Under the pieces are notes generated by a model. That model was given only the letters and a program-made list of their open reading frames with translations, did no database searches and had not been told where the DNA came from. From Trichinella spiralis (lineage: Eukaryota > Nematoda > Enoplea > Trichinellida > Trichinellidae), in NCBI GenBank assembly GCA_000181795.3, contig CM012953.1, forward strand, positions 9,288,893 through 9,352,892: a stretch of DNA of 64,000 bases, in the 5' to 3' direction. Below are positions 3,001 through 60,553 of this stretch, in pieces (within the stretch, counting starts at the first letter, position 1; every line of letters begins with the position of its first letter). The position numbers and the translations under genes were made by a program.

Positions 3001-6000
3001 TTGTGGCAATGATTATTATTACCTTCGTTTCCTGTCTAAAATTGACGTATTAAGGTCTTTAATGCAGAACAGGTGCTTCACAAAAAGGCAATGCTTTTGT
3101 CATTATCGTGCTAGTACCAAATGTACTTTTTCAGTTTCGATCAATTATTACCCTGATTTGATGGATCATCGAGTAGCAAAATAGAAATGCAACATCAGAT
3201 TGTACATTTTTTTGTGAACAAAAATTATTTTCATGTTTACCCAGTACAGTATTTCAGTTAGTGAACTGAAGGCAAGTTTGAAAGTATTGAATTTGCTTAT
3301 ATGCATGTGAATATAGTCGATAATAAGAACAATGCTGGCCTATTGCGGTACCTTGTCCTCATGGAGTTCAGTGTCCTTAGAGTCGTGTATTTGTTTTGTA
3401 AGAAATGGACTTTCAATTTGGACCATCGCCCAAGTTGACAATGACCAGAACGTGCGAAAGCAAATGAAATCTGAACACTCAGACTGACCTGGCCGGACAA
3501 TTGCATCTGAGCATTGCACATCGACCACCTAGCCAACATTGTAGCCGAAGGTCGCGTGACACTGCCCAAAGCGATTGATTTGGCTTATTTGTTCAGTAAT
3601 CATTCAGTTTTGTCTAGAGAAGATGTCTTGTTTAATCGACCCATTGTCTAAAATTTTATCGAGATTTCCGTTCGTCAATAGTGCCTTTTCCAAAAAAAAA
3701 CGAACATTCTTGTCCTTTTTAGTCACGTTTATTCTGAAAATTCATCAATTCTACAAATGAATCTTTATGAAATGTAATTGTAATGAAATTCAACAAAACA
3801 TACAAATTATTAATTTACAAGTGGCATCCAAGCAGCTAAACATTTCAAATACAGGACTATCAAATTGTCAGTGAAATAAATATTCACATTAAAAACATAT
3901 TAAGAACTGATATATGTCATTTAAAAATTAAGATGTAATTTAATATATTTATGCTATTATTATTATTACTGCTGAAATAATTTCACCTTGTATATACGTA
4001 TCATATATAAATATACAATGCAGTGTTCTATTTTGAGTAAGCAAGTTCCGAAAATGTACATATATACTGGAAAAAAATATATAATATCAGCTTAGAACAA
4101 TATTTTTATTGATTTCATGATTTAATTTGATAAATATAATTATTTTTTAAAGCAGCACAATTGTTAGGAATATAAAATTATACTGAAAAGAATATTCTAA
4201 ATAATATCTTTTCACATAATCTGTTTTTTTAGATAAATATCACCATAACGGATGAAAACAACACTCCTCCGCAATTATCTGAATACTTCTACAAATTCCA
4301 TATTGCTGAGGATGTTCCACCCGGTACAGAAGTTGGATTCATCAAAGCTGTAGATGTTGACAGCAATACAAAACTGTTGTTTTCGATTTTGGAGATGGAA
4401 AATCTATTCACAATTCATCCCAATTTGGGAATAATCACCACAACTTCAAAGCTTGATAGAGAAGAAATGACTTTTCATTATTTTACTGTCCAGATCAGTG
4501 ATGGAATAAATGTAATAACTGCGCCGGTTGAAGTTATTGTAACGGATGTGAATGACAACGCCCCTGTATTTCAAAATGAGACATTTATTTTTCATTTACC
4601 GAAATCTGTTCAAAAAGAGCACATAATTGGAATAATTAAAGCGACTGACAACGATGCTGGAAATAATGGAAAAATAACATATCATCTTCAAGCTCCTGAA
4701 CCACACTTGAAATCCGTTTTAACTCTTGATTCAGTTAATGGATTTATAGGAATAAAATCAACGTGGAATTTTGACAAGGTATGTGCTGAATTATAATTTA
4801 GACGTTTAAAAATGCATTATGCTTAAGAATGCAGTGCAAATAATAAAGAACACGTTCAGTACTATCGTTTAAGATGATTTTATAAAGCCTAAACTATCTC
4901 TTATTATTTTAATTATTGTATTTTTTAAACATAACTTTTACTTCATAGATACCTCTCATACATTTCAAAGTGTGTGCAACTGATAATGGTTTTCCATCGT
5001 TAAAAAGTACTGCACAAGTGATCATTGTTTTTGAAGAGGACAAAAGACTGCCAGTGTTCAAAGATTCCAGTTACATTATATCTGTTCAGGAAAACGTTTC
5101 TGTGAACAGTGAGCTTCTAAAACTCAATTTAGCTTCTGATCAAGGTATGAATAAATCTCATACATGCATATATTATATACTTTTAATAATGTAAATGATT
5201 AAATATATTTAATAATAATTATTATTATCAATTAGTGGAACATTTTAAACTTTTTTGCGTTTAGCCCATTTTTTATTGTGGCTCAATAATAACTATTAAA
5301 TATTATTTATTATTAATTAGCTAAAATACTTACTTATATTATTTAGTAATTTTATTGAAAAAAACAGAAGCGCAGCCAAAAGGCATTATTTTATTATATT
5401 TAAGCATTTCTGCATATATAAATTATGTAATCTTATAGATCTTTACAATTTTTATTAAATAAACTTTAATTTCAGAAAGTAAAATGAAGTTGTTCAGTTG
5501 AATATGCTTTTAATTTAATTTAATTAATGATTGTTTTAGAAAATTTATTTTATTACACAATATTATTTGGTGACCCACTGAATCAATTTTGGATTAGTCG
5601 TAAAGGAATATTGTATGTGAACAAAGCTTTGGATCGAGAAACACGTCATGAGCATCATCTTACAGTTATTGCTCACGATGAAGTGACATTAGAAAAAAGT
5701 CATTTCACAGCTTCAGCTACCATAAAAATTATTCTTATTGATATCAATGATAATGCACCTGTTTTTACATCATCGAACACGGCAATTTTGCATGACAGCA
5801 GTCCAGTTGGCACTGCAGTTATGACAGTTAAAGCCATTGATCCGGATGAAGGCTTAAATGGTCACGTACAATATTTCATAGATTCTTCCAGCGCTGGTGA
5901 CTTTAGTTTAAATCCAGTTTATGGAACTCTTCGTGTAAACGCAATGCTCAATAAAAAAAGTTACAAGTTAACTATTTGGGCTTATGATCAAGGTGAAAAT

Positions 6001-9000
6001 CAGCTGAGAACATCTTCTGATCTGAATGTCGTTCTTCTTGACACTACAGTCAATCACTTTATTCTTGAAGCTGATTCTACTGAAATAACGGTAAATGCAT
6101 TTCTGTTATTTTTACACAAACATGTCTCATTATTTGATTTTTTAAGATTTTTGAAAATGAACCGGTTGGAAAAGTTTTACTGAATGTAAAAGTAAAATAT
6201 GAAAAAGATATTCATGGCGAAAGTGCATTGCTTTGGATTGAGCAGTCTGAAAACAGTGATGACTTTCTTTTATCTCAAAATGGACAACTGACCATTGCTC
6301 GTCCCCTCAGTTATATCCGAAAACCCGTATACATTTTGAAACTTTATGGAAAAGGCACTTTACATTCCAATCCATCTGATGGCAATATCAGTTCTTTAGT
6401 GGTGACTATTCGTTTGAAAGATGTTAATGATAATTCACCAATATTCATCCAAAATCCAATCTATATTGATGTCGTCGAAAATACGGCTATGGATAATCAG
6501 TTTACAATAATTGGCCGCATAAAAGCCATTGACAAAGATCACTCCCACAATAGTCAAATCTTTTATTCAATAGTGCAAGGGAATACAAGCATTTTTCAAA
6601 TAGATTCTGCTTCTGGAGAACTGTTTATGACAGGCATTTTAGATCGAGAAGAATGTGAAAACTACACTTTAGAAATACAAGCTATTGACTCAGGTATTTT
6701 TAAAAAATTATTTACATTTCATAAATATGCAAAAAATAATTTGTTTTAGGATTTCCACCGCTTTCATCAAAAGCAACCGTTTTCATAAATGTTATAGATT
6801 TAAATGACAATCCACCAATTTTTGATCAGTCACATTATCGTGCTTTTTTAAGTGAAAATCAGCCACCTTCTACCAAAGTAGTCCAAGTTCATGCCATTGA
6901 CAAAGATTCTGGAGTAAATGGTGTAGTAAAGTATGAAAATAAAAAGTCAGCTTTCATTAAAATATCATAATAATAATAATATTTTTTGAAGATATAAACT
7001 GTTTGACAATTCTGTACCTTTTGTGATTAATGAAAAAACTGGTTGGCTTTCTACAACTGAAAGTCTTGATCGCGAGACTCAGAAACAATGGAATATTTGG
7101 GTTTTAGCAGAAGACTGCGGTTTGTACAACAAGCACACGTCAAAAGTGGAAATTCAAATAATTGTGAATGATGAAAATGATAACGCTCCTATTTTTCATA
7201 ATCAGCAAGAAAACATATATGTGAAAAATTCACTTCAGTCAGGTAATTGAAAAAGTTTTACTTTGAAAATGTTTTGATAATTTTAGCATAAGTTATTTGA
7301 TTTTCAATAAAATGCAGTGAGTGTATATATATATATGTGTAAATTGTATTTCCTGGTTAATCAAATTAATTATTCATGCTAAAACTATCAACTTGCTTTA
7401 ATTATTATAAAAATATTTGTATAAATGTATGTATTTATGTTGCAATGTATGAATAATGTAATGTTTTTATAGGTGATTTTGTTTATGCAGTTGATGCAAG
7501 CGATTTGGATGAAGGAAAAAACAGCTTGCTTAAATTTTATTTAAATGGAAAAGATGCAGATAAGTTTATTATAAACGTCTCTACTGGAGTGATAGTATCC
7601 AAAGCTGATCTGAAGTTTTGGAATAGTTACCGACTAACTGTCGAAGTATCAGATCATGGTTTTCCAGAAAAGCAATCATTTCTTAGTTTGCAATTTATTA
7701 CTCGACCGCCGTCAGAATTTCCTGTCTTTCAGAGTGATTTTCAGCAAGTTTATTCAATTGCTGAAAACAAGCGAAACACGTTCGTCACCTTAGCTGTAGC
7801 TAGATCATCCAAACAGGCTCCTTTCAATCGTATTCGCTATTCAATAGCATCTGGTAATATTGGACAAGCATTTACCATAGATTCTGAATCCGGTGAATTA
7901 TTCACAAGTGAAAATATTGACTATGAAACGCACTGCCATTACGAATTATGGATTGCAGCCGTTGATAATGACAGTCCTCCAATGATATCATTTTTAAAAC
8001 TTTACATAAATGTAGAAGACGTAAATGACAACTCACCTGTGTTCAACCAATCTATATATGAAGTTTCAATTCCTGAAGAAGAGCCTGAATTTTTTTATGT
8101 CACACAAGTGACAGCTACAGATCTGGACAGCGAAAACAATGGACTGATTGAATATTCGATTGATAAAAATCAAAGTAATGTTTGCGATTTGTTTCAAATT
8201 GACCCAACCAGTGGTATTATAACTACGAAAGTACCACTTGATCGAGAAACAAAAGCACAATATCATTTTGTGGTTGTTGCGAAAGATCAAGGAAAGCCTG
8301 CATTATTTGGATATGCAGTTGTTGTTGTAAATTTAGAAGACAAAAATGACAACGCACCTCGGTTTACGCATCTTTTTTCTGCCCACGTAAGAGAAGATGC
8401 ACCTTTGGATACGTTCATTACACAGATTGTGGCTGCTGACCTCGATGAAGTCTCGGACAATACTTACATTCTGGAAAATGGTGATGATAATACATTCAGA
8501 ATTGAAAAAGACACTGGTAGAATTTTTTTAAATAAAAGCTTGGATCGAGAAACTATATCTGAATATGCGATAAAAGTTTCTGTTCTGGATAGCTTTTGGA
8601 AAGTTATGACATCACTAACAATAAGTGTCGATGACGTCAACGATAATGCGCCAGTGTTTTCTAAGCACAGTTATAGGTATGCTTTTTCTAAGCAATTTTT
8701 AGAGCATATTTATAAATAATGTTCCACTTTTAATCATACTGTACTGCATTATATACTCTATTGCATTGCACTCAACTCTTTTTTATTTTGAATTTAAAAG
8801 TTGATCATAATCATCTAATATTGACATTAAAATAAGAAACTTTACGTAAAGGTGATAGATAAAAATATTTTATGTATTTTTTTCAGTTTTTACGTTCCGG
8901 AAACAAAAAGCATTCCAGTTTTAATTGGACGGTTAGAAGCGACAGACGCTGATAGTCAAGAAAACTCCAGAATTACATATAAAATGTATTCACAGTCGAG

Positions 9001-12000
9001 TCAGTTTTCCATTGATTCCGTTACTGGTGCTATATACTCTCATAAAGAACTCATCTATTATAATACATCGGAATTGAATATACATCATTTGAAAATAATA
9101 GCCCATGATTCTGGTCGTCCTGTTTTGTCAAGCATCACGACGGTTTCCGTTTTTGTTCTACCATGTGATGCTAAACTGATAAATCTGCAGAAGCCATCCA
9201 AGATGATTCCTGTGCAAGTAGGAACACCAGCGTCAACTATGATTTATCAAGTACAGAATAAAGTCAAATGTGCTCATTGTAAGTTAATGGAAATACGCTA
9301 TTCACTGAAGCAAGAAGAAAATTGGTTTGAAATCGATCCAAAAACAGGTAAGCATTTTTTTGGTTTAGTATATTTATGTAGCATATGAATTAATTATGCG
9401 CAGAAATATAAATATTTTTGTGTGAGATCTTTTAATGAGTCATAAATTTAGAATGATAATCAAAAAATAGTTTCATTTTTCATCATACTATGAATTGTTT
9501 TAATGAATTACTAAAATAATATTGTTTATTTGTTTTAATAAAAGCCAAGCAAATGATAATGATTTAATAATTTAGAATGCTAACATAATGATGCTTGTAA
9601 AAGATTATAGGGATTTAAAAAGCATATTAATTATAGTTAATCATAACAGAGGTACTGCAAGTGCTCAAATATTTATTTTTTAATTTATTTCTATGCATAT
9701 CCTGTGATTCTTTTTTATTAAATTTAAGAGCATAATATAAATCAGCAAATATTATCTCAGGTATATGCATAATATTTTCATTGTTTATAATAGGATGGAT
9801 CATGACAAACACTACTATAGCAAAAGATGCTTTGGATAGGAAATTCTTCGTGAAAATAGTTGCTGAACATGAGACAGTTACAGACGAAATTGAAATTGGC
9901 ATCGTCATTACAGAGGAGAATAGATATTCTCCTCGATTTCTATCCTCCAACTACACAATCAACATTTTGAAAAATACAAGCTTAAATGCCACAATCTTCA
10001 CTGCTATTGCACAGGATAATGATTCTGGACTAAATGGTTTGATTCAATATGAAAGTGCCTGCGTTGACGTTTCTCCATGCCCTTTTGCAATCGATTCAGA
10101 CAGTGGTGCAGTAAAACTTATTTCACCACTCAATCTTGATGATCACGACAGTTACGTTTTGAAAATCAAAGCTACTGATTCTGCACATCATCCAAAAACT
10201 TCTCATGCTGCATTGACGGTTTTAACGCAGCGTGGTTACAGCCGTATTCCAACGTTTCCACATCAGAAAGACGACGCATTTGTTCATCCGAGCAGTGGAG
10301 TGAATTTTACTGTGTACACATTTGCGGTAGAAAATTCTGAAAACATGCCGTCCAGCCAGTGTGAATATAAAATAATGAAAGGAAATGAAAAACAATTATT
10401 TTATTTGGATATGTTCAGTGGTCAACTGGTGCTTGTTTCTCCAATTGGAATTGAAGATTACAAAAGTACTATGCCATTATTAGTGCGTTGCATCAATCCA
10501 AACACTTCGATGTTTTCTGAGATGACTCTTTATGTGCATATTGGCACTGTTCATGAAAATTTTAAGCCAACATTTGCCCGTCGAGTGTACAAATTTCACT
10601 CTCATGCAATGGAAAGCTTGATCGGATTTGTAAAAGTGCAACATGAAGCAGATGATTATCAGTATTTTTTGGGAATCAGTGGACTGAAAAGTAATTTAGA
10701 AGTTGATGCAAACTCCGGTGCAGTTATCATGAAAAAACAAATTCCATCAAAAATGGTCGTTACAGTTTTGAGTAGGCGTTCTCAGTTTAAATCTGCGTTC
10801 GACTTTGACGTAGCAACATTAACAGTTAGGCCAGCAGACAATGGCACATTTCCAAGTTTTGATCAGACTGCTTATAATGTGACCATTTCAGAGAACAGCG
10901 CAATTGGAACGAAAGTTATTGCACCTATAATAAATGGTCCATTGGGGCATTATTGTAGAGCAGTAATTGTAGATGGAAATGCTAAAAGTTCATTTATGGT
11001 TGACAGACGTGCAGTTATTACTGTCAAAGGTGAGCTGGATTATGAAAGCCAGTCTGTTTATGAACTACTTTTGGCGTTGGTTTGCCTGGAAGAAGATCAA
11101 TGGTTATCGACCTGTCAGGTGAGGATTGATATTTCAGATGTCAATGATAACGGTCCTCAGCTGCACGAGTCGAACAGAGTTGGCTATGTTATGGAAAATG
11201 ATCCTGCTGGAACGCATGTTCTTACATTGTTGCCTTACGATTTGGATTCTTCTGTAAATCAAGGTCCATTTAAATTCAAAATGTTACATCCTGAACAACT
11301 GCCATTTGATTTGGATCCTCAGTCTGGAATTTTGAAAACCACTCGTCCATTGGATCGAGAATTTCAAGAAGAGTATATTATTGCTGTATCCATAGCTGAC
11401 AACGGAATACCACCTAAAACAACTATAACAAGTATCAAAATAGTTATTTTGGATATGAATGACATGGCACCTGAATCTGAAATGCTGCATGTGACCGTGT
11501 TGAGTGTTCAAGGTGCCCAATTTTATGGAGTTAGTGCCGATGTACATCCCTTAGATATGGATCTCATTGGAAATTATTCTTGTCAGCCAATTCGAACAGA
11601 TCATCCACTTAAAGTGGATGCTAAATGTGCACTTTTGATTGGTAGCATTCCCAGTGATCACGTTCCTGTACTGATGCATCTGAATGGTGATGATGGAAAG
11701 CATTTACCGGTGGATTTTGACCTTTCGATAAAATTTTTAACTTATACAAATTACACTGCTCAAAACAGTGTAATTTTGCATTTCGACTTGATGAAGCAAA
11801 ATTTATTAGAAATGGCCATTCAACCTTTGCAACAAGCCCTAGAAAAGGAAGGCTATTCGAGTTTGTTAACACAGGCCGAATGCAAACAGAGAAACTGTTC
11901 AGCTTGGATGACACTTTATGACTCCAGTCATCATATTATGCCAGCTTCAGAATTAACCGCATCACGCATTCAGCTGATTTGGAATCGCCTTAAACTGAAA

Positions 12001-14699
12001 CTAGACCAAGTGACGCTCACTCACGTTCAGCATGGAATGTGCACGGCAAATTCTTGCCTAAATGGCGGAATTTGCATCGAAATAACTGAATCCAGTGGAT
12101 CATTTTCTTATTTTCGAGAAAATGAAAACATCTTCATATTTCCTAAAATAGTGAAATCCTACCGTTGTGACTGTAGTTCTACGTATACAGGAGAATTTTG
12201 CGAAACTACAGTGGATAGATGCGCAATTAACAGTTGCCTAAATGGAGGTACATGCTTCCATGATGAATTACAGCTGAAGACTCGATGTCTTTGCCCTGAA
12301 GGATATGAAGGAAGTCGCTGTGAAAACGATGTCGATGAATGCACAATTTCAAATCCTTGTCAGAATAATGCGCACTGTGAAAATACGGATGGATCATATC
12401 GTTGCATTTGCGTTGCAGGATATTTTGGTAGCAAATGTGAAATGCCCATAGACAGATGCGCTTCGAATCCTTGTCTGAATGGTGGAACATGTGTTGCAGA
12501 TTTTGACGGCTACAAGTGTCAGTGCAGTTATGCATACACAGGTCGAAATTGTGAAATATCTAGCTACGGATTCCAGGAACTGTCTTATATTGAATTATCC
12601 GGCTTGAACGTTAGAAAAAATGAATTGTCATTCGAATTTTCTACTTTGCGAAGAAACGCACTTCTACTATACTGGAGTGGAACAAGCTACAGATCAAACT
12701 CCAGCTATGTAATTGTGGATATTTCAAATGGGCAACTCAGATTAGCCTGCTCAGCGTCAAATGGGCAAAAGTACTCCTCGACATTACCTCGCAACGTTAC
12801 CAATGCTAGGTGGCACAAACTTGTACTGCGTCATCAACTAAAAGTATTTTATCTTTTGTAACTAGCTCTTGCAACGCTTAATTTCTTCTTTGTTTTAGAG
12901 CATTGGAATTTCAATATCGGAATGTGGGGAAAATAAATGCACTAGTTGTGATACTGGAAATCTTGATTGTGAAATCACTTTTACAACTTGCGACAGGTTA
13001 GTAGAGAATGATTCAGTAGAAAATAGTTCAGACAAAACTTATATATTTATGTTTTTATTCAGTGCTGCAATGTTCGAAGATTTGGACGATTCTTTGTTCG
13101 TGGGCAGTGCTAATTTAGCCAGCAGAATACAGTCAATAGGCTATGAAATAGCATCGCCAAATTTCCTTGGATGCATCCGTGATTTAAGTTTAAACGGTGC
13201 GCCGTTGAACGCTAAAAGCATTCGCAGTAAGTCAAACCTACTAGACCATTGCCCAAGACAAGTAGCTGACCTGTGTGGCCATACGGACATGTGCAAAACC
13301 TCTGAACAGTGTTTGGACTTCTGGGATAGAACAGAATGCATTTGTCGAGGCAATTTCATTTCATCCTCTTGTGAACAAGGTAAAACGCACGACATTGTTA
13401 TAAACTGTTAACTATTTCGTAACAAAAATATTAATTATTATTATAAGAAATAATTTAAAATAAATTTGCTTTTACTAATAAACACTAACAAAAAACAAAA
13501 AAAGCTTATTATTTAAAGTATAATATATCCAAGAGTATAAGGCATTGGCAACTGTTATTTGATATACAAATTTGTATGCAATTACATTTCTGCAAATTAA
13601 TTACATTTTAGCTGAACAAACGTACAGTTTGAATAACGGCTTCATCTCTTACGACATTGGTCCTGGAGTGCATGTGAGGAGCCAATTTCCAACGTTCGAT
13701 GAAAATGCATTTGAAACCTGGGCCGAGAATGAACTGCGTCTGCATCATCAAAGTACACTTCCTGCCCTTTGGCTGAACATTTTATTTCGAACAACAAGCC
13801 GCGACGGTGTATTATTTTTCTCATCTACCGGAGTGCAGTTCTCCTTGATAGATATCGTGGACGGTTTCGTACGTTACATCAGCCGTACAGACGACCTGAG
13901 AACCGTGCAGTTGAATTTAGACGAAGGACCGACTATATCCGACGGCAACTGGCACATGGTATCGCTGGCTAAATATCCACAAGAAGGTTTGGTAGAGTTC
14001 CGCATCGACGATCACGGAAAAGATGCGCAACTTTTCACCGACTTGCACGACTTCTACGAGCAGAAATTGACTTCCTGCTCGTTGGGAGGGACAAGAAATG
14101 TGCTTCGAATTCAAGGGAAACAGCTGAACAATTTCCAAGGCTGTATTCGAAGGTTCATTCTCAACGGTCAGTTGCAGCCGATGGAACCCAGCCACCGGCA
14201 AAGCAACTTTCTCACGGTCCGTGAATCACAGAACGTGCTTTTCAACGTCAGCTGTGCCAACGCCGGTGCCCAAAAAACCGAACTCGAAGCCAAACGTCAA
14301 CGTCCGACACTTCTGATCATCTGCATCACCTTTTCCATCTGCCTGGTCTTGTCGGGCATTGGTTGCTATTTTTTTCTTGTACGTCGATACAGAAAAAGCA
14401 CAAAAGCCAAGCGGATCCAACAGTCGGTGCTGGACAGTCGCCTGGGATTGTTGGACATAATTCGACAAGCGGATTGGAATTTCGGATCAATCAAAGATCC
14501 AGACTATATAACGAAACGGGACCGTACGCTGACAAGACTCAGCGCTACGTGCAGCCGTCGAAATTTGTGCGACTCGGGCATTTCGCTGGATACATCCACA
14601 CTTGGCCAACGAAATCCGACCGACACACTGCCCTCACACGCCGCCGTTTACCACCACTATTCACGGGACATTTCACCCGATGGAAGTTTGTACATTTGA
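1..14699 (+). CDS. Fat-like giant protocadherin, C-terminal part (5' end outside window)
   Basis: Cell-surface adhesion protein of the Fat/FAT4/CDH-4 type. Exons: 1-1035, 4233-4778, 4949-5144, 5540-6090, 6147-6693, 6750-6930, 6992-7242, 7473-8676, 8887-9347, 9794-12843, 12899-12996, 13063-13379, 13612-14699. They sum to 9,525 nt, an exact codon multiple giving 3,174 residues without a stop. About 22 cadherin repeats carry LDRE and DxNDN-type calcium motifs, several of them degenerate. Then come four EGF domains (about 12034-12560, the third calcium-binding), laminin G, a fifth EGF (about 13270-13375), a second laminin G (about 13700-14240), a transmembrane helix (about 14307-14376) and a cytoplasmic tail of about 107 residues. 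Two laminin G domains match Drosophila Fat and FAT4 rather than FAT1-3 (family knowledge). The reading frame is open from base 1, mid-repeat, so the N-terminus is missing. See the reverse-strand cadherin at 26185-30776, which may be its other half. Confidence 0.93.
1036..4232 (+). other. Long first intron of the Fat-like gene with GC-shifted islands
   Basis: This 3.2 kb intron runs from a GTAAGC donor to a poly-T/AG acceptor and is far longer than the other introns of the gene. Most of it is AT-rich. Segments at about 2240-2860 and 3330-3580 are clearly richer in G and C and have scattered open frames on the reverse strand (2653-2847, 3297-3569). I cannot match these to a family with confidence. 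A decayed transposable element is the simplest reading, but no terminal repeats or intact domain are visible. Confidence 0.5.
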
Positions 14700-26184: not shown

Positions 26185-29100
26185 CTAGATAACGAGTACA
26201 GCATGATCTGTCGCTCGAAGAGTAATTCTATAAACAGCTTGAATTTCTCGATCCAATGGTGCTGAAAGTGTAAGTTTGCCCGTATAAGGGTCAAGAGAGA
26301 ATGTGTTGTTCTCATTGCCAGAAGCAATTTCGAATTTCACCATGCTGTTCATATTCATATCTTCATCCCGTGCGCTGACTCTTAGAACTTCTGATCCGAT
26401 ATCTTTGTTTTCTAGTAACGAAGCACTATACATATCTAACGTAAACTGCGGTCGATGATCATTTTCATCCATAACCGTAATGAAAACAGAGCACCGTGTT
26501 GATAGTGGATGAACTTCAGCTAAATCATATGCTTCTATTTGAAGTTCTATCGTAGATTTCTTGTTTATTTTATAAATTTCTTCTCTATCAAACTGGACCA
26601 AAGTTCTTAAAATCCCAGTTTCTGAGTCCAAAACAAAACGGTCTTCTTCTGGATTAGCAAGTCTGAAGCGGACAATACCATTTAATTTTGAATCTGGATC
26701 ATCAGCTTCAACTGTGCCAACATAACTCAGTGGTGGCAAATTTTCAGCAATTTCAAATTGAAATATCTCTTTCAAACATGTAGGTGAATTATCGTTTACG
26801 TCAGTGATGAAAAATTCAGCTTCGATTAAAGACTTCACTTTGCCATTTTGAATTGAAATGGAAAGCTTTTCATAGTTGGTGGTTTCAAAATCTAACGCAT
26901 TTTTTACATAAATCCAACCATCTGGAAATACACCAAACAAGTCATCAGGTGTTGGATCCACAATATAATATTGGTGTAGATATTGTCCAAAACCAATTTT
27001 TGACACCATTTCATTTACAGCTTTATCTTCAGGAATAATGAATTGCAAAGTTTGATTTTGAAATGATTCCAAAATGTTGTTGTCGTGCTTCACTAAAACA
27101 GTAATCTTGGTAGAATCATTCCTTGATGGCATGCCGTTGTCATTAGCGTGGACTGAGAATTCATACTGTCCCTGATTGACTAAATGGCCAGGTCGAGTCA
27201 ATGTGACTAATCCACTATCAGAATCCACACTTAAAAATGCATGTCTTAGATCTGAAACTATATAATAGTTAATTTTTCCGTTCATTCCAGAATCTGCATC
27301 TTCAGCTCGAGTATGCAAAATTGGAAAACCAACAGGCGTGTGATCAGTGATTTCAACAATATTTGCATTATTTAAAAATTTAGGGTCATTATCGTTGACA
27401 TCTTCTAAATTAACTGAAACAAGAACTGAAGTGACAGCCTGCTGACCATAAGCAAGCACTTTGAGTTGGTGCGTCCGTTGCTCTTCAAAGTCTAGTGTTC
27501 TTGTAGAACGAATTTCTCCAGAATATGGTCCAATTTCGAATAAGGACATATAATTTCCATCAACAATTTCATAATGTAATTGTGAGCCAGAATCAAAATC
27601 AGTCGCACTGACTGATCCAATGGGTCTAGCTAAATGTGGACCATTTCCAAAATCCTCTTGGACGACAAATTCATATTTTGGTTGTGTAAATTTAGGGGTA
27701 GCATACAGTGAGTCTATGAAATTCACCTGCACAGTAGCGTTATTCACAGAAGTTTTACCATCTGCATCTTTAGCTTTCACAACAATATTGATACTGTTTC
27801 GACCAAGAGGAATTTTCTTTAGAACTATCTTCCCGAGATTCACATCAAGATCAAATATACCCACCGGACTGTCTTCAAAGTAATACGTCACCAATCCATT
27901 AGAACCTTCATCAAGGTCTCGAGCTTTTACTGTTGCCACTGCACTACCAACAGCAGAAGATTTCAATATATTAACGGCATATTTCGTGGGATAGAATTTA
28001 GGAAGTTCGTCATTTACATCTAATACACGAATTCTGACGGTGGCGAAAGTTTGTCTTTGTGGCAAACCTTGGTCTGTTGCAATAATGTCCAGTGAGTACT
28101 CGGCTTGAATTTCACGATTTAAAGTTTTCATCAGAATCAAATCACCAGTTGTTTCATTTAACTGAAAATTTTCTGTAAATGCAATCAGTTGTACCTTAAC
28201 TACAGCATTCATGCCTGAATCTTTGTCTGTAGTGCGTATGGTAGTTATGTGAGTTCCAATGCTAGCATCTTCTGGTACGGATGCTTCTAGAGAGTCGGGC
28301 AAAAATTCAGGCGAGTTGTCATTCACATCCATGAGTTGAATATAAACTTTTGTTGTGGAAAAGTCTTCAGTAAGTGCAGCGCTTTTGGCAGAGATTATGA
28401 GAATATGCTCAGACTGAAACTCATAATCAAGCTCTGCTGCGGTAGTAATAAGACCAGTTTTTTCAGTTATATGAAACCATCCAAATTCATTTCCAGATAA
28501 AATAGAGTAGAAAATGGGCTTATTTTCCAAATGCGCTTGTAAGGCAATGACTTTAGAACCAACTGGTAAATCTTCAGCTAAGCTAACCTTATAATGTTGC
28601 TTTTGAAAATTAGGTGACATACGTCGACTACCTTTCACAAAAATCTGCAACATTTTGTAAGTAACCTTAGGCTTCAAGCCTAGATCTTGTGCTTTCAAAG
28701 TAAGGTTGTACCAGTGATGTTCACGGTGGTTCAGTGATGCATTGGTTCGTAGAAGACTAAATCCGAGACTGTTGTCTAGACGAAAATGCCCAAGCTCATT
28801 TCCACTGGTAATGTTCAATGTTGTTTTTCCATTAATTCCGCTGTCTTTGTCTGTAACTGAAATGAGCGCTATCACAGAACCAACAGGGTTTTGGTTATTC
28901 ACAATTGCATAACCACCAACATTATTGGTATAAAATCGAATTTGGATTTCAGGTGGGTGATCATTCGTATTTACAACTTGAATTCGAACGAAAGCGCGAG
29001 CTCTCTGAGAAGGTAAGCCGTGATCAGTTGCTTCGACTGTCAAAATGCACTCGCCCACGCATTCTCCACTGGTCTTGCAATAATGCTTATTGCAGTGAAG

Positions 29101-30776
29101 CGGTTTAGTAGTTTCAATTAAGCCAGTTTCTGAATTGATTGAAAAAGATTCTTCTTCATTGTCGATAAGTGAATAACTGAGACGTGAGTTTTCACCTAAA
29201 TCTAAATCAGTTGCTTGTATTTGAAAAATCGGCTTTCCAACAGGCAAACTTTCATTCACTATCACTAAATATTCCGTTTCGTTGAACACAGGCGGATTAT
29301 CATTAGAGTCGAGTACATTCAAGAAAACTGTTGTGTAGCCAGTCAACGGCGGGACACCACCATCGGTAGCGGAAATGTTCAAAATGTACAGATCTTTCTT
29401 TTCTCTGTCTAATGGATTTTTCAAAGTTAATAACAAAACTGAACCTTCATTTTGGCTGAGCAGTTGGCAACATTCGGCATCTGAGCCGATCAGCGTGTAA
29501 TTCACAATTTTCCCATTTATTCCAGCATCTCGATCATTTGCACCGATTAAAACTATTTGAGTACCAATTTTAGCGCTTTCTGGAAGCGAAACATTTTGGT
29601 ATGGGAGTGGAAACTTTGGAGCATTGTCGTTTACATCAAGCACATTAATTGTGACAGTGATAAAATATGCAGGCACTCCTTTACTTACGATCACCAAATC
29701 TATAGTATCCGAGTCACCATCGAGCAGATTTTCACGATCAATTTGCTCAGCAGTAATAATTTCTCCTGTATCAGTGTTGAAGTGGAAATGCACATTTGGT
29801 TCGCTTAACCGGTACTGATAACCATCTAGCTTTGTAATCGAACCAACAACTGTGTTTTTTGGCACGCCTAAATATTTATTTTCAAATTAAAGTATATACA
29901 TAAAAATGGCCCTAAGTTTTGCTTAAAACTGCAAAAACTTAAACCAAAATGAACATTATTGTCAAAATGTATTAGCTGTTTGAATACTTCGAACAATATT
30001 TCATTAAGAAAAACTGGAAATTTAAGCACATATTACATTTTATTTAAAAATATAAAAAAACCGATGCAAATTCATTTCAAAATTAGTAAAAATATTTGAT
30101 GCAACTTCAATGTATTTTATGTACATGTGAAGACAATTCTTTTACAAAACTTCAACACTCAATTACTTAAGAGAATTTTTGTACATTTTAGAGTGCATAA
30201 AATAAATTTGTGCAATTAGCCAACATTTTGTATGTAAATAACCATCATGAGGCTACCACAATGTCAGACAGAGAGAAAAATCAATTTCAACAGCAAAACA
30301 GTTCAAGGACAGTAATGAAACACCTGGTTACTCATCAAGCACTATTAAACTTTTTCAATAGAAAAAATTATTAAAATTGTATCAAGTAAAAAAGATTATC
30401 TATCAAAATTATTGCAGTTATTTTGCATTAGGTTGGTGAGGACGTCATTTTTAGCATATAAATTTACAAATATAGCATAACTTTTCAACGTCACCTTATT
30501 ATACTGCATCATGAATGATAATAAACTTAAAGTTCTGAATGAAAAAGAAAACCTACTGCAATAGGTGATAAAATTTACAAGCAATTGTTTAAAATCTTAT
30601 AAATGCAATTACTGAATAGGTAATGGAAAAAAAACGTTTCATACTGACTAACCTTCAGTAACATTGAGCTGTATGCGCTCTTCTAGAGAAGATGATGCGG
30701 ATAAAGTGAGATAGAGAAAACTGCTTGCACCAAGAAGCAGTGGGAAGAAGATTGTAGCGGGGCAGTGTCCATTCAT
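26185..30776 (-). CDS. Fat-like cadherin, N-terminal part, ends abruptly in repeat 12
   Basis: Exon 1 (30776-30653) encodes a signal peptide (hydrophobic core FFPLLLGASSFLYLTL). It joins in phase 1 to a 3.7 kb exon starting at 29867, so that the first repeat reads LNVTEGVPKNTVVG. About 11 full cadherin repeats follow (DVNDNAPKF, DVNDNSPEF, DENDHRPQF and degenerate linkers). The twelfth stops at ATDHAVLVI followed by TAG at 26187-26185. Repeat 3 carries a four-cysteine insert (about 29060-29100), and the repeat-4 block SGNELGHFRL recalls Drosophila Fat (recollection, not a search). No EGF, laminin G or membrane segment follows. The end may be a weak donor (GTACTC after GATCATGCT) whose partner exons are not in place, a real breakpoint, or a misassembly. 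It is probably the missing N-terminus of the gene at 1-14699. Confidence 0.88.
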
Positions 30777-49565: not shown

Positions 49566-49739
49566 TTTTTGAAGATCAAAAGCTGCTGTTGATCCTCATT
49601 TAATCAGAAAATACAAAATATAGCATAGTAAAATAGTATGGCGCATTCTGAATAAAGCCTAATGTATAACATTGAATAATTAATATTAATGTGATGATGG
49701 GTTAAAGATGAAATAGCTTCAGCCGGATCGCACCCGCAA

Positions 49740-51320
49740 ATGTCGTTCTCCTTGCCGGTACCAGGGAAACGGACGGCCCGGGACCTCATGGAAGTAGGGT
49801 CCTCGGGCAAACGGGTGCGCTGCCTTTTCTTCGTGCAGGAGAGGAGCTACGGAATGAGTTTCCTTGTGGACACCGGCTCCGAAGTCAGTGTGGTGCCATA
49901 TAATACCACTCTGCGCTGTCAACTCCACGCCGCGGACATTCCACAGCTAACAGCTGCAAACGGCACTCGTATTGATGTCGTCGGTAGTCGCGAGTTGACA
50001 GTGGACCTGGGTTTCACGCGCCCGATGAGATGGAAATTCGTCGTCGCACGAATCGCACAGCCCATCCTCGGTGCAGACTTTCTTCGGCACTTTAACCTAC
50101 TCGTCGACCTGAAGCATCAGCGCCTGGTAGACATGACGTCATGGACCTTCTCGAACGGACTCGTCAAGACCAGCAATACAAAATATGTCAGTTGTTTACG
50201 ACACGGATCAGATCATAACCTTGAAATTTTAAAAAAGTATCCATCCCTAACATCGTGCTTCAGAACGAGTAAGCCGGCCACCCACTCGATTCAGCACCAC
50301 ATCCTGACGCACGGGCCACCGGTTTTTGCAAGACCACGTGGGTTGCCGCCTGACCGGCTGGAACTTGCGCGAAAGGAATTCGACATCCTGCTGGATCTCG
50401 GCATCATACGACCATCTAGCAGCAGTTGGGCATCACCGCTCCACATGGTTCCCAAGAAACAACCGAACACCTGGCGCCCATGTGGAGATTATGGACCCCT
50501 CAACAACGTGACGAAGCCCGACAGATACCCGATCCCCAACATCAACGACTTCGTCACGCAGTTGGGCGGCCGGACGATCTTCTCCAAAGTCGACCTGATC
50601 CGCGCCTATCAGCAGATCCCGGTGGCGGAAGAAGATATCTCGAAGACGGCCATCACGACACCTTTCGGCCTTTTTGAATACGTGAGAATGCCGTTCAGTC
50701 TGCGAAATGCCGCGCAAACATTCCAGCGTTTTATGGACGAAGTGACTAGAGGGTTGCGATTCTGCTTCGTCTACTTGGACGACGTGCTAGTAGCAAGCCG
50801 CAGCAAGGAAGAACACGAAAAACATCTCGCTAATCTTTTTTGACGGTTTGAAAAGTACGGCATCAAGCTGAACCCGGCAAAATGCGTTTTCTTCGCGCCG
50901 GACCTTGAGTTCCTCGGGTTCAAGGTCTGCAACCAAGGCATCAAACCGTTGGCAGAAAAAGTCGAAGCGATACGCAGATTCCGTCAGCCGACGACCATGC
51001 ACGAACTCCGCCAATTCCTCGGATGTGCGAATTTCTATCGCCGCTTCATACCGCGAGCTGCCACGTTGCTGGCAACGCTGGAAAGGTTGACATCTTCGCA
51101 CGATTAACACAAGAAACTTAAACTGCCGGAGGACGTGATTAAGGCTTTCGACGAAGTGAAAGAAGCACTGGCTAACGCGACGCTGTTGAGCCACCTCCAA
51201 GAAGGCGCAGCCTTGTCATTGGTGGTCGATGCGTCCGACCACGCAACTGGTGCGGCACTGCAACAACGACACAAAGGGCGTTGGTCCCCCGTCGCGTTCT
51301 TCTCACGTCGCATCATATAG
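49740..51320 (+). pseudogene. Gypsy-type Pol (protease, reverse transcriptase, part of RNase H), element B
   Basis: One reading frame from 49740 through 51320, interrupted only by stops at 50841-50843, 51105-51107 and 51318-51320, with no frameshift. Domains in order: retropepsin-like protease with active site [10 protein letters not shown] (about 49868-49898), reverse transcriptase with [37 protein letters not shown] and catalytic YLDD (about 50774-50786), thumb and connection (FLGFKVCNQGI, LRQFLGCANFYRRFIP), then the start of RNase H (LSLVVDASDHATGAALQQ). The WRPCGDY...PDRYP form resembles CsRn1/Kabuki-type gypsy elements (recollection) and differs from remnant A. Gag, most of RNase H and integrase are missing. 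The few lesions suggest a fairly recent death. Confidence 0.88.
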
Positions 51321-55417: not shown

Positions 55418-58400
55418 TCAACAGTCGTCCGACTCACCACTGGACAATGGTGGAATGGAAGTGGACGCGTTGACACGACCGACTGGCAAGTTGCCGGTGG
55501 AAACAATCTGCATCACGTGGTAGCCTTGCATGTGGTCGACGGTCACCAGCAGATTGTGACCGGGAAAGATGTTCAACGTCTTGGCCGAGTCGGTCGACAA
55601 AAGCCAGTGGCGCATCTGGTTACTTTTCAGCTTCAAATTCCACCATTTCAACTCTGCCGACAGGGTTATCAGCACGTCGTCGTCGTCGTAGAACACCAGG
55701 TCGTAAATATCCGCACTGTGGGCGTAGATTTTCTGCACCAAATCACCGCCCGGCAGTTTGAACAAATTCACCATGCCGCGACTTTCGCACACGGCCAGCA
55801 GATTGCCGCTTTGCGACAATTTGCATTTCGACAAGCTGTTGTTGAAATCGTTCTCTTCGAAAATTGGATTCAAATTATCCAATTCCCACACCTGAAATAG
55901 TTGTTGTTTTTTGTTCTCTTAGTTTGGATTGGTTCGATTTTTACCGCCGCTTTTCACTCACTTTCACCTGCTTTCCACTCCAACAAGTTGCCAGATATGT
56001 GCAATTGGAATTCACGTCAAAGTCGACAATCATGCACACCGGAAGACCAAGAATCGCTTCGACGACAAACGAGTCGATGTTCAATATTTCGAAAGATCCA
56101 TCTTGGAGGCAGATCAGCAGACGGTTCATGTGCGGATGACGGTCGATGAAGATGCATTTCGTGACGGCAGATTCGAAAAAAGCAGTACCGTGACAGTGGA
56201 TTACGGCATCTTGAATCTGAAGCAAAAAAAATTTTGTTTTTTTTTCTCTATACTGATCAATTAATTAATTATTCATTAAGTAAAAGTCCACTTTGATATT
56301 GTCCAACTCACCGCCACGCATCCTTCTTTACAGCCGACAGCAAAGCGATCCGAAACGGTAGAAAAGGCCAAACAACAAGGCGCTTGTGGAGTTTTGAATT
56401 CTTTTTTCAATTCCGACAAACTGTTCCCGTCGAACTGGCAGCTCTACAAGCAAATTATATTTTTGGACCTTTTACAGAAAATGGAATCAATTTTCAACCT
56501 GAATCCAGCCGTTTTCGAAAGCAATCATCAATACGCACTCGTTGGGCGACCATTTCAAGCAGCTGACTCTGTCAAATAGACGTCTCGTCTCGATCACACT
56601 TCCAACGGTATCGGTAATAATAGAAACCTGAATTTCACATTTGAAAAATACAGTTTATCACTTCGAAACTGTACAACGTTCAAATAAATATACCTGCAAT
56701 GTGTAGTCTTGAACCGATGCCAGAAGAAGGGCAGTTTTAATTTCGACAAAATCAATCAAATTGATTTCAGGTATGGAAATGTTCGACTTGTGAATTTCGT
56801 TGAAAATCTGACAAATGAAATTTATTTCAACTTATAACAATGAAAATAAGAAGAAGGAAAAAAAATCTCACTAAAACGGCATTGTCCTCTCTGACAGCCA
56901 GGAGATCTTTGCCTTTTTCTGAAAAGTACAACTGTTTCAAAATTCTACACTGACCAACCAGATAAGTGCTCAATTTGTTCTCCAAATTCCATATCTGTAT
57001 AAAAAGAAAAAATAATTAATGTAGAATAAAATTTAAAGAAAAAATTTTTTTTGTTTCTACAAGCACAGAGAAGTCGGTGAAAGAGGCGGCTAGTAGATTT
57101 TCGGTCGGTGACAACGCAACGCATACAATGCGGACGTGCTTTTGGTCAGGTTGAATTTTTTCCAACAGTTCAACACTGTTGCTCTGCTTCAGGTCATCAT
57201 GATGGTCACGACTGTGGTCAAACTTCCAAAGCAAAATCCGCCGTTCGCAGGCGGAAAAGATGCATTCGACCGATGTGAAACGTCCGGTGAAGGCGCAGAA
57301 CAGCACCGGTCCACTGTGATGGCCGGCAAAGCGGCACCGCAGACCGAAGTCCGCAGGGTTCCAGAGTTCGACCACGCCGTCGGCCCGGCCAATGGCCAGC
57401 AGCGAGTCGTCTCCGTTGAAACCGCAGCTCGTGATGTGCGTCGTTGTCGATCGGTCGTTGCGCCTAGATTGTGGATCCAATCCGCCGGACACCCGACCTT
57501 GGGATATTTCCAAAATTTTCGCCGACCCCTCCATGTCGCAGCACAGTATCCACGGGTAGTGACGAGCCGGCAAGCAGAAGCGCAGCTCGACGCCACAATT
57601 GTCGACTTCGAACTCGCGCACTTGCAACAACTTCGGTCCCAAAATATTTTCGTCCACTTTCTGCTGCTGCTGTTGCTGATCTTGATGCTTTTGGTCTTGC
57701 TGCTCGTTTGCACGAATAAAGCCGAGCCCGTTGCAGAGGTGATTCAAAATTGGAGACGGAGTACGCTGACAATCCAAGTCGTCCATCCCAGTAGTGGTGT
57801 CGTCCTGCTCTGTGGATGATCTCTTCAAATGATCATCCAACTCGAAAACGCCAACATAATTGCCATAAGCAACGAATAATGTACAATTGTTGTCAGAAAA
57901 TGACAAATAATTCGGCACATGATTCAACACCACTCGGTACAACTGCAACCCAGTTGTTGTACAGCAGACCTGAGCGAGATTTGCAATTTTAAATTTATTA
58001 ATTTCTAAACAAACAAACAAACAAATTACCCCCAGGCAAGAATCGAAACCGATATAAATTATTTTCTTCTGCCGTGACATCCAAACGCCAGTCTTTACCG
58101 AATTACAACTGAAAGTAAAATTCGGATCTTTGCCAAAACTTTGCTTACACCTATAAATAAAAGAATATAGATTTAAAATAACAACTATAATATAACACTT
58201 GTCATTTGCAAAAATTTTTACCAAGATTTCAAATAGGGTTTTGCAAAGCCGTCCACCACTGCGCTGCTGTCACTTTCTTGTAATATTCGTTCAGCTTCCA
58301 GATACAATTCACTGAGATTTTTATTCAAAAGAGAAAGATGAATAAGACTCAAATATTTTCCATTGTTCGTAGCTAATTGGAATGAATTATTTTTAATTAA

Positions 58401-60553
58401 TCGTTCAATTTGATCAAACAACGTCGGATGCTGAAAAATTGTTAAATTACATTTAATTAATGACAACACTTTTAAAAATTGTAAAATAACAGAAACGACA
58501 TGCTATATTTTTCTACAATAACAATGGATAATAAAAATACAATTATGAGTCATTACCTAGAACAATATAAAAATAAATCAACCTTTAAATAAATATTTGA
58601 GATTTCATATTAAAAAAACTTCTTTTTATTTTTAATCAAATTACTTTTTACTCAATTCTCGCCCATCAATAAAAATGTAAATGCTCAATCGAAACTCACC
58701 GAATCACGGATAAATTTTCTGTAATAAATCAGATCGTTGAGCACACTGGACGGTCCGCAGAGGGCAATTTTCTTGGCAAGAAATTTCAAATTCAAAAACA
58801 CATCCGAAAAGCTGGCAAATTTATCAGCACGAAACAAATGATAGCCCAAAAAGGTGAATATGTATTCATGGTCGGGAAGCTTGCCCCAACAATCGTCAGC
58901 AACTTTCAAATAATTTCCGAGCAATTTTTGATGAAGAGTCTAGAAATTTCCACCGCATCAAATATGATATCAATCAGCTGACGCAAAAAAAAACAATTAA
59001 ACGAACTTTTCTCAAATCGGAATGGCAACTCATTTTAATAACCCGATGCAACAACGCGTGAATTTGATACGTTTCAACGGCTTCACAGTCACTGGACGAT
59101 TTGATCAAAAGGGATCGTTTGACAAATTCCGCCATAATATCTTCAACTTCGTAAATGCTTTTATTCCAATAAACGGTCAAAACTTGCGAGCTTATTTTAA
59201 CACCGAGAGGAAATATGGCCAATTCGAAGTAGAGCTGTTTCAAATCGTCCGTCAAATCTTCCAAACTCAACAAAGCGGCTTCGTTGAATGTCGCATATTT
59301 GTAATGGGTGACTTTTTTGATGTTGTTCAATTTTTGAGAATGAATCAAACCATAATAAAATTTCCACCTGAAAATAAATCATCGATCGATTCAACCGACC
59401 AATGTGGACATTGGGTTGGGAAAAAGTTCTACCTGGAATTGTGCTCTTTGAGAAGGGCACCGATCAAGGAAATCAGCAGAGGGTGTCCTCTGCATTCGTG
59501 AAATATCTGTAAAGCTTCCAATGGCAAATCACTCTCGTTGCAGTTCAAATAGCTGGCGAACGCTTGCATTGCTTCATCTCTGGTATAACCGGACGGTTCC
59601 ATCAGTACAAAATATTTGCGATTATTGGCCACGTCAAACAAGCTCGCGTTGCGCGTCAAAGCCAAAATACGACACTGCAATTCGTCGAACAGACGAACGA
59701 CACTTTCTGTCCAGACGTCGTCCAAAATTAGCAACGTCCGGGGATAATCGAAAAGCATCAATTCAATGAGTCGGCTGCTCGCCTCTTCGACACTGTCCAG
59801 ACGGTGAAATTCTTTGCCCATTTTGCTGTACAAATCTTGCATCAACGCAAACGAACGAATTCGGTCACAATTTCGACCGGCAGTGATCCAAAAAACTCTA
59901 GAAAATAGCCCGCCCGTGATTTCAGAATCCCGTACAACAGCGGCAGCCAAAACCGACTTCCCACACCCGCCCATGCCTGAATATGAAAAACAATACGGCA
60001 TTTATTAGACAAAAATTCAAAAATATTTAAACAATGGGACAAATTGTCACCAACCGTGCAGTACAATCCAACCGGGTTCTTTGTCGATGCGCATTAAAGC
60101 AGTTTTCAACTTCAGTTTCATTTCTTTACGTTCAACGTACACTTCGGGCTTACGGGGCACTTTTCCATTGATGAGCAAAATGTTCAACGAATGCTTCGAA
60201 TTGGGAACAGCACCACGATCCACTTGACTGACCGAATTGACCAATTCGATTTTCAAATGCCGGTAGCCGGTCTTGTCCAACGCATAAACCAAAGGACCAA
60301 GATCACGAGCTTTGCGTCGATAAATTGTCAGCAATTCAGCAACCCTCTCCCGCCTGGTAACCTGAAACGAGCGATCGAATTGGCGGCAAAATTCCCATCA
60401 AACTGTCCCTACCTTAGCGTTGATTAATTCAATGTCGTCTTCCGAAAAAACCCCAGCCGCTTGCAAATAAGCTGTGATCTCTTTCGGCTCCAAATCGGTC
60501 AACAACGAATGCTGACTGTTCAGCAATTTCAAATTCTGCTCTTCGCTGAGCAT
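55418..60553 (-). CDS. APAF1: Apaf-1/CED-4 apoptosome protein with CARD, NB-ARC and WD40 propellers
   Basis: Caspase-activating scaffold of the apoptosome. Exons from the right: 60553-60413, 60361-60055, 59976-59433, 59367-59007, 58939-58700, 58430-58222, 58150-58030, 57969-57061, 56994-56872, 56807-56694, 56627-56499, 56443-56312, 56216-55962, 55891-55418; 4,059 nt = 1,352 residues (human 1,248). CARD at residues about 1-95. NB-ARC has P-loop GMGGCGKS (K156), Walker B LLILDDVW (D235-D236), sensor-like ILALTRN and GHPLLISLIGALL. The winged-helix block is EVEDIMAEFVKRSLLIKSS. A helical domain follows, aligning with human through LCGPSSVLNDLIYYRKFIRD. From about residue 600 a long WD40 region follows (GVVELWNP, RRILLWKF, VLIWNLEN, KQVKVWELDN), ending ELKWWNL...LLVTVDH like human Apaf-1. 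C. elegans CED-4 lacks WD40. The intron at 57970-58029 is stop-free and in frame. Confidence 0.95.

Follow-up and report, generated by a model that had tools for sequence, protein, structure and literature searches.

Does a nematode carry an Apaf-1 with a complete C-terminal WD40 half and, if so, would that half still answer to cytochrome c? The question is raised by a gene in a 64,000-nucleotide stretch of Trichinella spiralis DNA (the window), for which a first-pass annotation had proposed a full Apaf-1 with WD40 propellers and a possibly cytochrome c-responsive apoptosome.

The presence of a WD40 half in clade I nematode Apaf-1 is already published. Young et al. (2020) described CED-4/APAF-1 with WD40 repeats in clade I (Trichuris and Trichinella) and without them in the other nematodes studied (PMC7456325), and WD40 loss in nematode and insect homologues had been proposed earlier (PMC2246300). 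Because both the WD40 half and its later loss are in print, the premise of novelty fails, as it does for the related point that C. elegans has a reduced pathway if some nematodes kept this half. Added here are the exon-intron structure of the gene, the missing cytochrome c-contacting tryptophans and a probable misannotation of the public models at their 3' end. In a literature search restricted to open-licence papers, tryptophan loss in nematode Apaf-1 was not found in titles or the openings of abstracts.

Gene structure and domain layout

The predicted gene comprises 14 exons and 1352 codons in a single reading (Table 1), and 13 of its 13 introns are GT-AG, in agreement with the in-frame 14-exon model of the first-pass annotation.

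Table 1 Features of the Apaf-1 locus in window coordinates
Feature	Position	Strand	Length	Content
Apaf-1 gene	60553-55418	-		14 exons
Exon 1	60413..60553	-	141 nt	Start codon and first part of CARD
Exon 2	60055..60361	-	307 nt	Remaining CARD, linker, NB-ARC start to HG/MGGCGKS
Exon 3	59433..59976	-	544 nt	NB-ARC core, GMGGCGKS and LLILDDVW
Exon 4	59007..59367	-	361 nt	NB-ARC end, winged-helix domain, helical domain start
Exon 5	58700..58939	-	240 nt	APAF1_C helical domain
Exon 6	58222..58430	-	209 nt	Helical domain end
Exon 7	58030..58150	-	121 nt	Propeller 1 entry
Exon 8	57061..57969	-	909 nt (303 codons)	Most of propeller 1, Q-rich insertion
Exon 9	56872..56994	-	123 nt	WD40; I962 at human W884, E at D902
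I962 codon	56943-56941	-		In exon 9
Exon 10	56694..56807	-	114 nt	WD40
Exon 11	56499..56627	-	129 nt	WD40
Exon 12	56312..56443	-	132 nt	WD40; K/E at human D1023/D1024
Exon 13	55962..56216	-	255 nt	WD40; S, Q, M at human E1045, F1063, T1087
Exon 14	55418..55891	-	474 nt	Final blades and stop; D1256 at human W1179
D1256 codon	55711-55709	-		In exon 14
Counterpart of 164-aa protein, first exon	54757-54709			
Counterpart of 164-aa protein, second exon	54603-54152			

Profile searches of the protein placed a CARD at residues 13-73 (PF00619, E 3.3e-8, above the cut-off), an NB-ARC domain with Walker A and B at 126-367 (PF00931, E 1.9e-32), a winged helix after it at 372-436 (PF21296, E 1.2e-12) and, between the winged helix and the propellers, the APAF1_C helical domain at 451-580 (PF17908, E 2.3e-19). 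Beyond the helical region lie about 740 residues of WD40-type sequence that can be aligned to the end of vertebrate Apaf-1. The predicted fold of exon 8 is WD40 and aligns with mouse Apaf-1 641-865, with low confidence in the Q-rich insertion within propeller 1. Profile matches and alignment together bear out the earlier assignment of all these parts to one gene, including the C-terminal blade that had been likened to the end of human Apaf-1; judged from its predicted sequence, the Trichinella protein is a full-length Apaf-1, with the WD40 half, in the Apaf-1/CED-4 group of STAND NTPase apoptosome scaffolds.

This layout is identical to that described for clade I CED-4/APAF-1, which is likewise single-copy with CARD, NB-ARC and C-terminal WD40 repeats (PMC7456325). 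Vertebrate Apaf-1 (3sfz, 3j2t and 5juy) shares the domain order, the NB-ARC motifs, the helical domain and a WD40 half running to the end, at about 30% identity, but differs in lacking the Q-rich insertion and in the contact residues considered below. C. elegans CED-4 (2a5y) aligns over the CARD, NB-ARC and winged helix (E 9.8e-30), whereas its chain ends at residue 549 without a WD40 half, as the first-pass annotation had stated.

The public models P0001 and P0002 continue for about 150 to 220 residues beyond the exon 14 stop. We do not count this C-terminal extension as Apaf-1: in T. pseudospiralis the corresponding residues make up a separate protein of 164 aa that begins with a hydrophobic segment, and matching exons are found in the window (Table 1). 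The 3' end of the public models is, on this comparison, likely to be an annotation error. Because a good donor lies inside exon 14, a fusion isoform of Apaf-1 with the downstream stretch is possible.

Relatives and descent

We examined the best 120 of 400 matches to the window protein, 116 of which were non-nematode. The best was the Trichinella sp. T9 'Apoptotic protease-activating factor 1' (98% identity over 100%); among the matches listed, public Trichinella Apaf-1 proteins were 95-98% identical, and the Trichuris muris and T. suis proteins reached 41-42% over 98%. The nematode host on which the first-pass reading depended is supported by the T9 match, by 23 Col_cuticle_N (cuticle-collagen) matches in the genome, from a search whose controls were prokaryotic only, and by an assembly with 52.8 of its 53.1 Mb in three contigs. 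Trichinella has three chromosomes and genomes of 55.3-65.7 Mb (PMC13334664). An 18S gene is also present in the assembly.

The proposal of a WD40 half in the nematode ancestor, lost in later lineages, fits these data and is that of the published account (PMC7456325). A protein search with the N-terminal half gave no match named as nematode among 33 (several nameless), and the absence of WD40 repeats in other nematodes therefore rests on that paper and on the CED-4 chain.

It is very improbable that the NB-ARC and WD40 halves are two genes or transcripts wrongly joined. The gene model is a prediction from sequence, the 3' end of exon 4 was picked by alignment and has a weak donor (AAA/GTTCGT), and intron 5, within the helical domain, is 269 nt; however, the halves are also joined in the public models of Trichinella sp. 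T9, T. murrelli, Trichuris muris and T. suis (also predictions), introns 6 to 8, leading from the helical domain to the WD40 part, are only 71, 60 and 66 nt, and the domain order is as in other Apaf-1 proteins. Horizontal transfer from a vertebrate host would suit the PDB matches, which are far stronger to vertebrate Apaf-1 than to CED-4, and the fact that most non-nematode matches among those listed are vertebrates. We nevertheless hold it to be extremely improbable given the 14 exons with short introns, the Trichuris proteins as by far the nearest non-Trichinella matches among those listed, and the roughly equal distance of vertebrates, echinoderms and one hemichordate (25-33% identity among the matches listed); moreover, Trichinella and Trichuris share a branch of their own in two trees (98/100 and 88/100), with two vertebrate proteins on a separate branch without the worms (100/100). 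Improbable, too, is an ancient duplication that would make CED-4 and Trichinella Apaf-1 paralogues and not one gene minus its WD40 half. Nematode and insect proteins have been traced to a different ancestral copy from those of deuterostomes (PMC2246300), and CED-4 is extremely divergent (branch length >5 in NB-ARC trees), pairing in one tree with a beetle protein (85/90) away from the clade I worms. Against this, the only NB-ARC match found in the Trichinella genome is exon 3 of Apaf-1, nematode CED-4/APAF-1 genes are single-copy with a gene tree near the species tree (PMC7456325), and in the other tree a constraint joining CED-4, Trichinella and Trichuris was not rejected (p-AU 0.303), which leaves that grouping itself unproven.

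Cytochrome c contact positions

Cryo-EM places the cytochrome c contacts of Apaf-1 at E700, W884, D902, E1045, F1063 (backbone), T1087 and W1179 (PMC4691890). We aligned the nematode proteins with 64 non-nematode sequences of 1230-1310 aa (52 shorter or longer of the 116 listed were left out) and found the human residue at 0 of the 7 positions in Trichinella, T. muris and T. suis, the Trichinella residues being N, I, E, S, Q, M and D, respectively. Both W884 and W1179 are tryptophan in 64/64 non-nematode sequences, with a gap-free register at both, and are replaced by I and D in Trichinella and by P and P in the two Trichuris proteins. At D1023/D1024, where at least one Asp is stated to be kept generally in all Metazoa (PMC4445527), the three nematode sequences have K/E, S/H and R/H. 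The suggestion of a possibly cytochrome c-responsive apoptosome is thus not borne out, with the human residue at no contact position and both key tryptophans gone. Human Apaf1 carrying W884D and W1179D, a double mutant designed to lack cytochrome c binding, gave foci in 5% of cells versus 35% for wild type (PMC12552632); the Trichinella Asp at W1179 is the same substitution.

The WD40 half is broadly diverged. Of 139 positions conserved at >=95% in the non-nematodes, a set that contains no protostome control, 66 were shared by one or more of the nematodes, 33 by all three, and 73 were lost in all three. Among 20000 matched random sets, 4.7% were as poor as the contact set, in a control that scores the commonest non-nematode residue (at 1087 this is A, not the human T). 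Contact-position loss is barely above general WD40-half divergence, and these two results weaken the contact residues as a clear sign of selective loss. The D902 to E change in Trichinella is mild, the E700 place is badly aligned (Q or gap in one alignment; N, D, D in another), and in five invertebrate deuterostomes only the two tryptophans are strict, the other five contacts being variable or unlike the human residue.

Partners and a possible mode of release

Six-frame searches of the genome gave one gene each for a CARD-bearing caspase, a BCL-xL-like BCL-2 protein (best PDB matches, BCL-xL) and cytochrome c. The caspase locus lies on one strand of C3, with caspase exons at E 4.2e-34; its CARD exon alone scored E 0.023, below the cut-off, and E 1.2e-9 when joined in the analysis with the neighbouring exon. 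Compared with the human sequence, worm cytochrome c retains K7, K8, K27, K39, G56, K72, P76, K79, I81, K86 and K87, not K25.

That retention, the alignment of the full WD40 half to the vertebrate end and the conserved D903, D941 and D1064 of Apaf-1 would all suit an apoptosome gated by cytochrome c as in vertebrates, with other worm residues making the same grip. We consider this unlikely: both key tryptophans and the D1023/D1024 pair are missing in all three nematode sequences, the retained aspartates may be structural, respiration alone may require G56, K72, P76 and I81, and neither T. suis BCL-2 protein was able to make mammalian cells release cytochrome c (PMC7456325).

The explanation we favour, and hold to be reasonably probable as a whole, is that the Trichinella gene descends from an ancestor with the full CARD-NB-ARC-winged helix-helical-WD40 layout, and that its product is restrained by the WD40 half and released without the vertebrate cytochrome c grip. 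The WD40 half would fold over the nucleotide-binding core; once released, protomers would come together by way of NB-ARC and bring in the CARD caspase. With the contact residues missing, release would be independent of that grip, and the propellers may answer another partner, possibly the BCL-2 protein or another ligand, or release may depend simply on nucleotide exchange and protein level. We infer an apoptosome of this kind from sequence comparison. Release in the worm would be closer to that of Drosophila Dark (3j9k) than to that of human Apaf-1: Dark also bears WD40 repeats and assembles without needing to bind cytochrome c (PMC7456325), a likeness drawn by description, Dark being absent from the 34 PDB matches to the Trichinella protein at E 0.01 or better.

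We give an even chance to the broader proposal that clade I nematodes kept the complete WD40 receptor half and lost the cytochrome c grip, their propellers serving another ligand or restraint alone. If true, these worms would be a natural intermediate, bridging the gap from an apoptosome gated by cytochrome c to CED-4, which has no WD40 half. Since W884 and W1179 are missing in Trichinella and Trichuris, the role of WD40 propellers where an apoptosome does not bind cytochrome c could be addressed there, and the loss offers a sharp, cheap test using purified worm proteins.

Gene structure, host and prior reports

The 14 exons of the minus-strand gene join to 4059 nt (1352 codons plus a stop), with GT-AG boundaries in 13 of 13 introns (51 to 269 nt), a GC content of 0.263 in introns versus 0.457 in exons, and 71 and 57 stops in the two alternative frames. 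Two exon ends were placed by better joins to the Trichinella sp. T9 protein, giving 1352 aa in place of the earlier 1348. Pfam matches, obtained with the 1348-aa version, ran in the order CARD, NB-ARC, APAF-1 winged helix, APAF1_C helical domain and WD40-type, and in a PDB sequence search human and mouse Apaf-1 matched far better than CED-4. The exon joins and both searches bear out the single in-frame gene proposed by the first-pass annotation, and its identity as Trichinella Apaf-1 is a near certainty.

The presumed nematode host was likewise confirmed. Among the matches listed, the closest protein was 'Apoptotic protease-activating factor 1, partial [Trichinella sp. T9]' (98% identity over 100%), followed by T. 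murrelli (95%), Trichuris muris (41%) and T. suis (42%), and the genome yielded 23 matches to cuticle-collagen N-terminal domains. Three large contigs, C1 to C3 (19.96, 17.53 and 15.35 Mb), hold 52.8 Mb of the 14-contig, 53.1-Mb assembly; all 12 Trichinella species are reported to have three chromosomes, with slightly larger genomes of 55.3 to 65.7 Mb (PMC13334664).

A WD40-bearing nematode Apaf-1, the headline of the first-pass annotation, is already published and therefore not new. PMC7456325 describes 15-17 WD40 repeats in clade I CED-4/APAF-1, naming Trichuris and Trichinella and noting that the other nematodes studied differ, and cautions that WD40 repeats do not necessarily imply cytochrome c dependence. 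PMC2246300 suggests that WD40 loss was relatively recent and specific to nematode and insect homologues.

Cytochrome c contact residues

Contacts of Apaf-1 with cytochrome c comprise E700, W884, D902, E1045, F1063 (backbone), T1087 and W1179 (PMC4691890), at which the window protein has N, I, E, S, Q, M and D. None of the seven human residues occurs in it, T. muris or T. suis (0/7 each), and the register around both tryptophan places is free of gaps. W884 and W1179 were tryptophan in 64 of 64 non-nematode sequences aligned, these being the 1230-1310 aa proteins among 116 non-nematode matches listed and including five named invertebrate deuterostomes. A human Apaf1 with both changed to Asp, designed so that it should no longer bind cytochrome c, formed foci in 5% of cells, down from 35% (PMC12552632); Trichinella naturally carries that Asp at the W1179 place. 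At 1023-1024, where at least one Asp is generally present in all Metazoa according to PMC4445527, we found K/E in the window protein and S/H and R/H in the two Trichuris. The suggested cytochrome c-responsive apoptosome is thus not supported.

As evidence for lost cytochrome c sensing, the contact residues are of only moderate strength, because the WD40 half of the nematode proteins is broadly diverged, matched random sets of seven positions were equally poor 4.7% of the time, and only the two tryptophans are invariant across the invertebrate deuterostomes, in which the other five contacts are variable or unlike human. All three nematodes kept 33 of 139 strongly conserved WD40-half positions (66 in at least one); the corresponding figures for the first 589 positions were 83 and 114 of 175. 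The functional weight lies in which residues were lost, not in how many. Worm cytochrome c retains G56, K72, P76 and I81, which may be due to respiration. What remains of interest is a WD40 half retained with its cytochrome c tryptophans lost.

Partner genes, proposed mechanism and origin

Six-frame searches, in which a gene shows up one exon at a time, identified a single NB-ARC, one BCL-2 domain gene, one cytochrome c and four caspase-domain matches at two loci. A CARD beside one caspase locus was weak alone (E 0.023) and clear with two exons joined (E 1.2e-9). BCL-xL topped the best 60 of 144 PDB matches to the BCL-2 protein, whose residues 60-163 align to 104 residues in entries for BCL-xL, 1pq0 among them; judged against BCL-xL rather than CED-9, this fits the missing CED-9 insertion reported for clade I (PMC7456325).

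Given the domain layout, partner genes and lost contacts, we consider it fairly probable that the WD40 propellers would restrain NB-ARC until released in a way that does not involve the vertebrate cytochrome c grip, after which a ring would assemble and recruit the CARD caspase.

NB-ARC trees argue against acquisition of the gene from a vertebrate host, since the Trichinella and Trichuris proteins form one group (98/100 and 88/100) apart from two vertebrates (100/100). The trees gave CED-4 no firm position: in one its partner was a beetle protein (85/90), and in the second a nematode clade including it was not rejected (p-AU 0.303).

Downstream gene and other features

Public T9 and T. murrelli Apaf-1 models extend into the stretch downstream of the window gene. 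This fusion looks like an annotation error, judging from gene models, because the same stretch is a separate 164-aa protein in T. pseudospiralis and a matching two-exon gene lies in the window. Its 166-aa product has a hydrophobic start (MSRNLFICFCTLILL...) and gave no match in a Pfam search; the name of its T. pseudospiralis relative, 'Polyribonucleotide nucleotidyltransferase', looks wrong.

Features of the window and the second caspase-like locus
Feature	Position	Strand	Remarks
Four open frames	5524-14699	plus	Domains of cadherin, EGF or laminin G type; may belong to a single large cadherin gene
1233-aa open frame	26185-29886	minus	10 cadherin stretches; FAT4-like N-terminal cadherin matches
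Retroelement piece	49698-50843	plus	Open frame with reverse-transcriptase domain; weak aspartyl-protease match (below cut-off)
Two-exon gene	54757-54709, 54603-54152	minus	166-aa protein; matches T. pseudospiralis stand-alone protein
Apaf-1 gene	60553-55418	minus	14 exons
Apaf-1 exon 8	57969-57061	minus	
L015	C3:2130436-2133606		Second caspase-like locus, on large contig C3

The six-frame CARD search found no match adjoining L015; a neighbouring frame looks Ig-like by eye, so this locus may be a MALT1-type paracaspase. Within propeller 1, residues 51-109 of Apaf-1 exon 8 form a low-confidence insertion that contains a Q-rich run and is not equally long in the window and T9 proteins.
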